Positions 31,824-47,810 of a stretch of 64,000 nt of DNA are shown piece by piece. Positions within the stretch are counted from its first letter, which is position 1. Each line of letters starts with the position of its first letter. The position numbers and the translations under genes are program-made. The stretch is from Gemmataceae bacterium (GTDB lineage Bacteria; Planctomycetota; Planctomycetia; Gemmatales; Gemmataceae): NCBI GenBank assembly GCA_003136315.1, contig PLDW01000143.1, positions 1 to 64,000 on the forward strand, given 5' to 3'. A model generated the notes under the pieces. The model was not told where the DNA came from and made no database searches. It was given only the letters and a program-made list of their open reading frames with translations.

Positions 31824-32138
31824 ATGAGTGACCTCGACATCGGCGATGACCTGACGATCACCCGGACAACCCGCCAGGCTGCGGGGGCCGGAACCTGGGT
31901 GTTCGGACGGGTGGCCGGGCACCGGTTCGAGGGCCTGGTGTTTCCGGAACACGCGGAGTACCCCGCTTACGAGATTGGCGACAGCCGCATCTCGAAACTC
32001 TGGGTCCAGCGACTGGCCGACCGCCAGACGGTATTCAACTGGGACCGCGGGGCCGATGTCACAGCCGTGGATGAGGCGGCCCAGGCGGTGGTCGATTTCC
32101 TGGCCGCAGGGTTGGCGGAGCACGTCTACCCGGGTTGA
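31824..32138 (+). CDS. Small conserved element protein, 104 aa
   Basis: 104 aa from an ATG at 31824 with AAGGAG 10 nt upstream. The sequence is acidic and beta-rich in the middle (GTWVFGRVAGHRFEGLVFPE), ending in a helix (AAQAVVDFLAAGLAEHV). I believe similar proteins occur beside methyltransferase/polymerase modules in other elements, but no function is known to me. It is one of only two plus-strand genes in the element. Confidence 0.65.
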   Translation: MSDLDIGDDLTITRTTRQAAGAGTWVFGRVAGHRFEGLVFPEHAEYPAYEIGDSRISKLWVQRLADRQTVFNWDRGADVTAVDEAAQAVVDFLAAGLAEHVYPG

Positions 32139-32218
32139 GCCGAAACGCCTGCGGGCGTCGCGGCGGGTGGTTCCCGCCGCCTGATGATGGCAACCGAGAA
32201 CCCACACGGGAGACCACC

Positions 32219-44510: not shown

Positions 44511-45323
44511 CGGGGGAGTTGGGACAGAGGTTGGGGCCGCCAGGAGGGCGGGTTGGAGAAGGTGTCAGCGTGCGGTGGCATGTGGGCACCTCCAAAGGGG
44601 GTGGGGCCCACAGCGACCTTCGCCTGGCGACGGGTAGCTGTCTGGCGGGAACGAAGCCTCTACTTGTTAATTACCCGGTTGGGGTTCAAAGTGTCCGATC
44701 TTGCGAGAGGACGCCTCAGAATACGCGGTGAGTCGGACCGAAGCGTGCGCCGTGGAAAGGTTTGTTAGGTCATGTCGGGAGAGCCCCGACCCCGCTGGAA
44801 GAAGGCGGGTAAAACGATCCGTTTACCTTCATCCGAAAGGAGCGAGGGGACAATAGCATGCGGATGAAGCGACGTGAGACCCAGCGTCAAAGGGTCGATA
44901 GACGCTCGCGAGTTAGGCCACGCATGGGCAAGGCTGGATTGCTTGAACTCCAGTCCCAGTGGGTGCGTTCCGACACCTCCGGGAAAGACGCTGATACCCG
45001 GATTCCTGTCTCACGGGGTGAGTGCTTCGCTCCCCGTGATCTTCCGACAGGACACACCCGGCAATGAGTCGGGGCAAGGGACGAACGGAGGCCCTAAACG
45101 TGGAGCGGACCTGACAGACAACCACGGGATCGCCTACAGGCAGTAATGCCCAGGGCGACAGAGTCCCCCTAGTAGGCGTCAGCCGAAGGGGGACAGGACA
45201 CAGGGCTTCAACAAGAAAGGGGTTACTCGGATGAGTAGTTCAGCCCTGCTCAGGCTTGAAGCACTGCGGAAGTGCATGGCTTACCGGGTTGGGCCATGAC
45301 ACCATGTAGATCCCGTGTCTGGA

Positions 45324-45343
45324 GAGCCGGATGCACGGAAACA
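45324..45343 (+). ncRNA. 5' part of outer-intron domain V
   Basis: GAGCCGGATGCACGGAAACA supplies positions 1-20 of domain V including the catalytic AGC and the GAAA loop. The remaining 14 nt (ending TCCGGTTC) resume at 47745. The joined stem has 8 basal pairs, a 2-nt CG bulge and four of six upper pairs, with C-A and T-C mismatches. Confidence 0.75.
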
Positions 45344-45802
45344 GTGCGCCGCGGAACGCGGTGTTGAATCCCTGACGCAGTCAGGAGAAACTCGGAGGAA
45401 TGTTTCTGGGCCGTCTGGTTTACCTGAAGGCGAAAGCTAGAGGGGAAAAGAGCATGCCAGAGAAGCGGGAGTCACTCGAAGGCGTTTACGGTGCCGTCCC
45501 GCGAGGCTCGCGTGATATGGCGAAAGCGACACTGCCTGAATCCCAATCCCCAGTGGTGGAACCGCACACCCGCTGCTACAGCGCCTACATCGCAGCGCCC
45601 CAGGAGCGGATCGTTCGGATTTCGCGATCGGCTTCCTCCGCTTGGCGGGGCGATGGAGAACGACTCCATTCAAGGGGATGAGTGGGACGCCTACGTCACG
45701 CTCGACACGTTCAGCACCAACGGAACGCGGGATCGCCTACAGGACGCGAGTCCCACGGCGACGGAGTCTCCGTAGTAGTCCGAGGACGGGAAAGCCGTCC
45801 AC

Positions 45803-47665
45803 ATGGCGAAGGGAGACAGGTGGTCCGACGACCAAAACGTCCAGGTACGCGAGATGCGAAACGCCGAAACGGTTTTGGGAGTCATTCGTGAACGTGGCAG
45901 ACGAAGGCTGCCGCTGGAGGACATCTATCGGCAACTGTACAACCGCGAGCTTTACCTCCGTGCCTACGGGAGGATCTACCGCAACGACGGTGCGATGACC
46001 CCCGGTTCGACGCCGGAGACCGTGGATGCCATGTCGCTGGAGAAAATCGGTGCGATCATCGGCTTGCTTCGCGAGGAACGCTACCGCTGGACTCCAGTCC
46101 GACGGACGTACATCCCCAAGAAATCGGGGAAGTTGCGGCCTCTCGGGATCCCGACCTGGTCGGATAAATTGCTGCAAGAAGTGATCCGCTCCCTCCTGGA
46201 AGCGTATTACGAGCCGCAGTTCAGCCGGCACTCCCACGGTTTTCGACCCGGCCGAGGGTGTCACACCGCCCTGGGGGAGATCACTCAACATTGGAGAGGG
46301 GTCAAGTGGTATATCGAGGGCGACATTGTTCAATGTTTCGACCGGCTGGATCATTCGGTCCTGCTGAGCGCGCTGAACGAGAGGCTCCACGATCACCGCT
46401 TCTTGCGGTTACTGTCCAACTTGCTTCAGGCCGGATATTTGGAGGACTGGAAGTATCACGGCACGCTCAGCGGTAGCCCGCAGGGCGGGGTGATCAGTCC
46501 GATCCTTTCAAACGTCTACCTGGACAGGCTGGATCAGTTCGCCGAGTCGGTGTTGCTCCCGGCTTACAACCACGGAGACCGACGGAAGCCGCACCCGCCT
46601 TACATGGCGCTCCTGAACGCGGCGCGAAGACATTGGGATGCGGGACACCCCGACGAAGCCCGGCGGCAGCGTCAGCAGGCGCAGCGTCTGGCCTCACGGG
46701 ATCCCAACGACCCGAACTTCCGCCGCCTCTGGTACGTCCGGTATGCGGACGACTTCCTGCTGGGCTTCAGTGGGCCGCGAGAAGAAGCCGAACGGATCAA
46801 GCAGCGACTGCAAGGGTTCTTGCGCGAGACTCTCAAGCTGGAACTCTCACAGGAGAAGACGCTGATCACCCACGCCCGAACGGAAGCGGCGCGGTTCCTC
46901 GGCTACGAGATCGTCACCTTGGACGCCGACTGCAAGCATGACCACCGCGGTCAGCGTTGCATCAATGGCGCACCGGGGCTGAAGGTTCCCGCGGCAGTCA
47001 TCCGCGAGAAGTGCTCTCGGTACATGCGACGAGGCAAACCCATCCACCTGGCCGCTCGATTGCAAGAAACGGATTTCAGCATCGTCACCCAGTACCAGGC
47101 GGAATATCGGGGCCTCGTGCAATACTACCTGTTGGCCTTCAACGTCCACCGCCTGTGGCAACTCCACTGGGTCACGAGCTTGTCGCTGGTGAAGACGCTG
47201 GCGAACAAGTTCCGGACGTCCGCGCGGCAGGTCCGCCGGAAGTACCAGACGACCATCGACACGCCCCACGGCACCTTGAAGGTGCTGGAGGTCGTCGTCG
47301 AACGCGGCGGGACCAAGAAGGCACTGGTAGCGCGTTTCGGGGGTATCGAACTGCGGTGGCAGAAAAGCGCCACCCTCGACGACCGGCCCAAGGACGTCTT
47401 CAGTGTCCGGAGCGAGGTGGTGCAACGCCTTCTGGCGAGGAAGTGCGAGCTGTGCGGGGCAGAAGGGGACTGTCAAGTTCACCACGTCCGCAAGCTGGCT
47501 GACCTGAGCCGACCAGGTCGCAGCGAGAAACCGCTGTGGGTCAAGCGGATGGCGGCCCGCCGCCGCAAGACGCTGGTCGTTTGCCGACAATGCCACGAGG
47601 CCATTCACCGCGAACGGCCGAAGCGGCATGCGTTCAAGACGGAGACCACCGGAGAGCTGCGGTGA
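45803..47665 (+). CDS. ltrA: Group II intron reverse transcriptase/maturase with HNH endonuclease
   Basis: 620 aa from an ATG at 45803. The RT domain has RPLGIPTWSDKLLQEVI, EGDIVQCFDRLDH (motif 3 aspartate), GSPQGGVISPILSNV at 224-238 and the catalytic YADD at 314-317. Domain X follows (QYQAEYRGLVQYYLLAFNVH). An HNH endonuclease is at about 545-600, with Cys pairs CELCG and VCRQC around HH. All catalytic residues are present, so the intron may be active for splicing and retrohoming. The stop codon (47663-47665) lies inside domain V of its own intron. The gene symbol is by analogy with LtrA. Confidence 0.9.
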   Translation: MAKGDRWSDDQNVQVREMRNAETVLGVIRERGRRRLPLEDIYRQLYNRELYLRAYGRIYRNDGAMTPGSTPETVDAMSLEKIGAIIGLLREERYRWTPVRRTYIPKKSGKLRPLGIPTWSDKLLQEVIRSLLEAYYEPQFSRHSHGFRPGRGCHTALGEITQHWRGVKWYIEGDIVQCFDRLDHSVLLSALNERLHDHRFLRLLSNLLQAGYLEDWKYHGTLSGSPQGGVISPILSNVYLDRLDQFAESVLLPAYNHGDRRKPHPPYMALLNAARRHWDAGHPDEARRQRQQAQRLASRDPNDPNFRRLWYVRYADDFLLGFSGPREEAERIKQRLQGFLRETLKLELSQEKTLITHARTEAARFLGYEIVTLDADCKHDHRGQRCINGAPGLKVPAAVIREKCSRYMRRGKPIHLAARLQETDFSIVTQYQAEYRGLVQYYLLAFNVHRLWQLHWVTSLSLVKTLANKFRTSARQVRRKYQTTIDTPHGTLKVLEVVVERGGTKKALVARFGGIELRWQKSATLDDRPKDVFSVRSEVVQRLLARKCELCGAEGDCQVHHVRKLADLSRPGRSEKPLWVKRMAARRRKTLVVCRQCHEAIHRERPKRHAFKTETTGELR

Positions 47666-47689
47666 GATCGAAAGACTCATGCCCGGTTC
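47654..47689 (+). ncRNA. Inner-intron domain V
   Basis: A 36-nt hairpin begins GAGCTG (AGC triad) and closes with CGGTTC. A GAAA tetraloop is at the tip (ATCGAAAGA) and the upper stem pairs GTGAG with CTCAT. One C-C mismatch lies in the basal stem. The last four maturase codons and its TGA are within this hairpin. Confidence 0.7.
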
Positions 47690-47810
47690 GGAGAGGGGCC
47701 GTCGGAAAAGTGCCGCAAGGCAACTCGTCGGCGGCCTACTCTACTGCCCGTCCGGTTCGGGAGGGGGCGGTTGGATTCCCTTGGTAACAAGGGTTGGCCG
47801 CCTACCTCAT

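Follow-up and report, generated by a model that had tools for sequence, protein, structure and literature searches.

Intron within an intron: the question

Does a group II intron that interrupts the catalytic hairpin of another group II intron represent a single accident, or is this hairpin a regular target? This question is raised by a locus on contig PLDW01000143.1 of a Gemmataceae bacterium (Planctomycetota; assembly GCA_003136315.1, a draft of 524 contigs), of which we analysed positions 1 to 64,000, here called the window. We show that the window contains two nested group II introns, both on the + strand, with both sets of boundaries being confirmed: the outer one, the host, has no open reading frame (ORF), and the inner one encodes a reverse transcriptase (RT)-maturase and lies inside domain V (DV) of the host. 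Our data go beyond the single twintron first noticed and show the locus to be one member of a DV-targeting lineage. The anatomy of the locus, the recurrent position in DV, the covariation of the separated DV halves and the match of the exon-binding sites EBS1 and EBS2 to host DVs are seen directly. The twintron very probably arose by retrohoming, the inner intron belonging to a lineage that carries an HNH endonuclease and targets the DV of other group II introns.

Anatomy of the twintron

The 5' segment of the outer intron (44745-45343) starts with GTGCGCC and covers domains I-IV and the first 20 nucleotides of DV (45324-45343). The inner intron (45344-47744, GTGCGCC to CTCTAC) follows directly, inserted two bases past the DV tetraloop, and behind it the outer intron resumes with DV nucleotides 21-34 (47745-47758) and domain VI (DVI; 47759-47810), which forms a stem in RNAfold and ends in CCTACCTCAT, the final AT at 47809-47810 fitting the AY rule for 3' ends. 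Rejoining 45324-45343 with 47745-47758 gives a 34-nt DV, GAGCCGGA UGCACG GAAA CAUGCC CG UCCGGUUC, which shows the AGC triad in addition to a basal stem of eight pairs, a 2-nt bulge and a GAAA loop; the same hairpin is predicted by RNAfold and agrees with the pair counts. A preliminary description of the locus had given these coordinates, both GTGCG starts (44745 and 45344), the CTCTAC end, the rejoined DV and a second DVI with an AY end at 47810, all of which check out; it had omitted two mismatches among the six positions of the distal stem, U.C beside the bulge and C.A near the loop.

The description had also staked its reading on 44745-45323 being of group II type and had called for covariance-model searches. 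We built two covariance models, R1 and R2, on the inner intron together with related introns, leaving out the outer intron, and both match this segment, R2 at 44821-44959 (62.4 bits, E 2.5e-19) and R1 at 45075-45177 (59.8 bits, E 5.6e-13). Each model matches two places in the 64 kb, the inner intron that was used in building it and the outer intron, and no others. EBS2 (TCCGAC, +225, 44969-44974), positioned as in relatives, and EBS1 (GCTTCG, +280, 45024-45029), located in a hairpin loop and in the same alignment columns as the EBS1 of relatives, pair with the intron-binding sites IBS2 (GTCGGA, 44732-44737) and IBS1 (CGAAGC, 44739-44744) of the 5' flank by 6/6 Watson-Crick pairs each, i.e. 12/12 together. 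Judged from domains I-III, the EBS/IBS pairing, the rejoined DV/DVI and the AY end, the outer element is a group II intron. An ORF scan revealed no RT ORF within it, DNA searches of genus and phylum (392 genomes) no near relative, and at the locus no conserved gene is recognisable as being interrupted by it.

The inner intron conforms to the GUGYG rule at its 5' end (GTGCG at 45344) and to the AY rule at its 3' end (AC at 47743-47744). It encodes a protein of 620 aa (45803-47665, +) within an intact, stop-free ORF, containing an RT domain with YADD (RVT_1, PF00078), a maturase domain (Intron_maturas2, PF01348) and an HNH endonuclease domain (AI2M-like_HNH, PF21368). LtrA is its nearest solved relative (E 3e-109), and its TIGR04416 score of 264 lies under the cut-off of 300. 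The HNH domain and the fixed position inside DV set the intron apart from group IIC, which is marked by the lack of an endonuclease and by insertion beside terminator or attC hairpins. The DV of the inner intron (47654-47689) has 36 nt; its basal stem contains a C.C mismatch, and one additional A is bulged out. It is followed by DVI (47690-47744), ending in CTCTAC. RF00029 matches both at 47652-47744 with 40.0 bits, which is exactly the gathering score, the stem being atypical; this is the only Rfam group II match of the window. The other group II models of Rfam matched neither intron, and since they missed the inner intron too, their silence is not evidence on the outer one. EBS1 of the inner intron is GGATTTC (+274, 45617-45623), a position set by exact EBS1/IBS1 matches in relatives; an early candidate near +58 (TGTTTCTG) was rejected because the EBS1 of relatives lies at about +274 to +283.

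Relatives of the inner intron occupy the same position in other introns

We examined proteins related to the inner one among the matches listed in genomes, plasmids and viral contigs, and found relatives of the inner intron at the exact same spot in the DV of other, different introns in at least four bacterial phyla. At this site, after nucleotide 20 of a 33- or 34-nt DV (site A), both junctions can be read in five loci besides the window: in Singulisphaera (L024, the protein being 81% identical in amino acids to the inner protein), on a contig of a viral collection (L062, 81%), on a complete Microvirga plasmid (L053, NZ_CP141049, 66%), in another Gemmataceae genome (L090, 61%) and on a complete Priestia plasmid (L108, CP136440, 53%). 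The 5' DV junction alone is readable in L043 and L025, and the 3' junction alone in L054, L055 (Salmonella), L056 (Microvirga) and L057 (Streptomyces), in which truncation or replacement has removed the 5' ends. The regions upstream of L024, L062 and L053 contain RT-maturase ORFs that belong to other introns; none was found within reach upstream of L108, L090 or the window copy. A second position, two bases ahead of the DV end (site B), is occupied with both junctions readable in L104 and L105, and with one in L119, L120, L121 and the intron in L030. About 30 further relatives that we examined sit elsewhere than in DV.

A tree of 45 proteins contains a ten-member clade with support 100/99, nine members of which have DV flanks. 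The Priestia protein (L108) falls far from this clade, so that the use of site A is either older than the clade or arose twice. The claim of a maturase intron within the DV of an ORF-less intron is well supported by the boundaries, the EBS/IBS pairing, two covariance models, DV covariation as described below and the recurrence of this arrangement in independent genomes, among them complete plasmids. Across the viral collection and 384 genomes of the phylum, a pattern search for the 5' half of DV followed by GTGCG gave, beyond the window, solely chance matches in coding sequences. A search of E. coli with the Salmonella locus matched only the IS66 element that truncates this locus, and a viral scan with the Microvirga protein gave no match.

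Some observations on single loci stand beside these results. Upstream of the protein, the Salmonella loci (L055, L054) lack the 5' end of the DV-homing intron: in Salmonella Javiana an IS66-like transposase gene has taken its place, and in Macclesfield it is likewise missing. In the Microvirga plasmid, a complete tRNA-Met gene (L053, 2920-2995) lies between the stop codon of the host intron's RT-HNH protein and DV, and a tRNA-like 3' sequence follows the end of the host intron. The introns inserted at site B are those of Streptomyces plasmids and one of Ktedonobacter (L104 at 3019, L105 at 3019, L121 at 1516, L030 at 5373). In introns of Streptomyces NBC_01450 plasmids (L122, L127), the 3' flank resembles domain I of another intron of the same class, a further kind of nesting. 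In most DV-homers, the distal stem of their own DV has one additional, bulged A (UGAG-A-YC GAAA GA CUCA; window, L043, L053-L056, L062). EBS1 of the window's inner intron finds no match at site A of this intron's own DV (47654-47689), possibly a form of self-protection.

The separated DV halves covary

We scored eight rejoined host DVs, from six site A and two site B loci, on the DV structure: 95.5% of the cells are paired and 9/14 pairs have changed on both sides. Not one of 500 shuffles matches this pairing score, and slid structures drop to 18-45%. At the site B loci, the far side of the insertion holds the last two DV bases alone; in the six site A loci, stem partners are split by an insertion of ~2.4 kb and yet covary, which is direct evidence for one hairpin formed by the flanks. 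The rejoined DV is not due to chance.

EBS1 and EBS2 follow the sequence of the host DV

In relatives outside DV (L026, L027, L058, L107, L071) and in the site B intron of L105, EBS1 is found at +275 to +280 and makes 6-7 exact pairs with the exon; the position of EBS2 is about +217 to +225. In 21 introns, EBS1 and EBS2 fitted their own exons better than permuted ones in 5000/5000 trials each, a strong but uncalibrated result because the rows are related. When exons were exchanged among eight DV-homers only, the true partners were still favoured (514/40320 for EBS1, 112/40320 for EBS2). EBS1 of the DV-homers holds UU or UUU facing the DV loop, and the pairing is perfect in Singulisphaera (L024, GGUUUU/AAAACC) and Priestia (L108, CCUUUC/GAAAGG). 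Judged by these pairings, the invaders have EBS1 and EBS2 elements that follow the DV sequence of their hosts.

This supports a model according to which the inner intron RNA, carried by its own RT-maturase, would reverse-splice into the DNA of the host intron after DV nucleotide 20, EBS1 reading DV nucleotides 14-20, in which the conserved tetraloop (GAAA or a near variant) lies, and EBS2 the immediately preceding 5' strand of the distal stem; the intron protein would then make cDNA. Since almost all group II introns have a DV, such a target is met again and again in different genomes. As long as the inner intron stays in place, the catalytic hairpin of the host is interrupted and, therefore, the inner intron should exit first, restoring DV so that the outer intron could splice in turn; such an order of splicing is expected from the anatomy. 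Retrohoming as the route, splicing and its order are what we infer from the observed arrangement. For the lineage as a whole, it is probable that its members are specialised parasites of group II introns, with EBS1 and EBS2 tuned to the DV tetraloop and distal stem, using the catalytic hairpin as a homing site, crossing phyla on plasmids and chromosomes and retargeting as host DVs vary, whereby the host ribozyme would be expected to stay inactive from insertion of the invader until its removal by splicing.

Weighing the alternatives

Several observations count against a DV-targeting lineage or against the window copy being a regular product of it. The Singulisphaera protein (L024) contains stops, and L025 is attested at its 5' junction only. 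The one clade member without DV flanks, L061, lies in or beside an HU-like gene and adjoins cold-shock-like genes, so that DV targeting is not absolute. No empty site was found in the order when searching with the joined flanks, the upstream flank instead being part of a Gemmataceae repeat. Finally, the inner EBS1 (GGAUUUC) forms 5/7 pairs with the present host DV, and the inner EBS2 fits it only partly.

The same EBS1 pairs far better with intact DVs elsewhere in its own genome, by 7/7 (one G.U) with a multi-copy family (L008-L015, L019), by 7/7 Watson-Crick pairs with L016 and by 7/7 including wobbles with L017, full pairing of a random 7-mer having a chance of 0.002; these DVs are related and therefore carry the weight of one or two independent cases. 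With EBS1 and EBS2 combined, the score is 10-10.5 for the same-genome DVs versus 7.0 for the actual host, and L018 also reaches 10 via another register. As the invader fits these DVs better than its host, its present landing looks off-target by this pairing comparison.

Thus, a dead nested insertion, in which a single off-target retrotransposition into DV left two introns neither of which splices now, is a possibility that we take seriously for the window without favouring it. Besides the weak pairing with the present host, it draws on the two distal-stem mismatches of the rejoined outer DV, on the C.C mismatch and bulged A of the inner DV with its RF00029 score merely at the cut-off, and on an outer intron having neither an intron-encoded protein (IEP) nor a near relative in the 392 genomes. 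The defects of both DVs make splicing of this copy uncertain, and it may be impaired. However, the inner ORF is intact, the odd inner DV is shared with L043 (partial protein match, 93%) and so is no fresh lesion, and the pattern across the family makes DV a regular target even if the landing in the window is imperfect. For the window locus alone, a dead insertion is compatible with descent from a DV-targeting lineage.

It is unlikely that the DV hairpin guides insertion as a DNA structure instead of through EBS/IBS pairing, comparable to group IIC introns at terminator or attC hairpins. In its favour, the hairpin is strong in all hosts and is entered at a constant position despite differing basal-stem sequences. 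In contrast, EBS1 and EBS2 covary with the host DV sequence, relatives with another EBS1 (L026, L027, L058, L107) sit in ordinary genes with exact pairing, and the protein has an HNH domain, unlike group IIC proteins. We regard it as very improbable that the nesting is kept as a regulatory switch, with inner splicing timing outer splicing: DV integrity would hinge on excision of the inner intron and engineered nested introns have served as switches (PMC8393795), but the outer intron interrupts no recognisable conserved gene and the searches in genus, order and phylum revealed no conservation of the locus. An assembly artefact or chance adjacency of intron fragments, for which the draft state of the genome could speak, deserves next to no credence given that both junctions are exact, the same arrangement is present in the complete Microvirga and Priestia plasmids, the DV halves covary and the outer EBS1 and EBS2 fit their flanks 12/12.

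Relation to known twintrons

The preferred reading, retrohoming by a DV-targeting lineage, adds to a field in which twintrons are known mostly as isolated cases. Dai and Zimmerly reportedly described in 2003, going by their title, nested arrays in one archaeon with homing into related intron ORFs and not into DV. Nested introns are known from Methanosarcina acetivorans, where other group II introns were entered repeatedly by site-specific homing (Dai and Zimmerly 2003, as cited in PMC4424553). A DV twintron is known from psbF of the Euglena gracilis chloroplast (Copertino and Hallick 1991, described in PMC8393795); as presented in that description, it is organellar and a single case, with no lineage of repeated DV targeting, whereas the elements reported here are bacterial, with an intact RT-maturase-HNH protein in the window copy and the same position in many unrelated hosts. 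The Thermosynechococcus elongatus TeI3/TeI4 twintrons show preferential insertion into other introns, proposed as a proliferation route; their inner introns are ORF-less and located in domain IV (DIV) between two IEP start codons, within one related family of one genome (PMC2882425), whereas the present invader carries its IEP and enters the catalytic DV of diverse hosts. Trichodesmium Tery_4732 is likewise a bacterial group II twintron, for which sequential splicing was demonstrated, but its inner intron lies in domain I of the host at a single conserved locus (PMC4649490). In Porphyridium mat1f, one inner intron likewise occupies the same site of two different outer introns, the setting being a plastid and the target a DIV/IEP remnant (PMC4476101). 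We found no report of a DV-homing intron lineage in the open-access literature searched, most subscription journals lying outside this search.

If a lineage keeps returning to a single position in the region where group II introns are most conserved, its niche would be the active site of other mobile elements: the target recurs wherever group II introns do, and splicing of the host is made dependent on the invader. DV-homers could serve as natural replicates for ordered splicing and EBS-directed retargeting. Moreover, DV searches miss interrupted host introns, as illustrated here by Rfam finding the inner intron alone.

Further features of the window

Upstream of the outer intron, the non-coding segment 44561-44699 (+) matches repeats of ~100 bp (72-82% identity) in many Gemmataceae genomes, some of which hold several copies. 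Distant from the twintron, at 32138-32199 on the + strand, Rfam identifies a type II hammerhead ribozyme (42.7 bits; gathering score 37).
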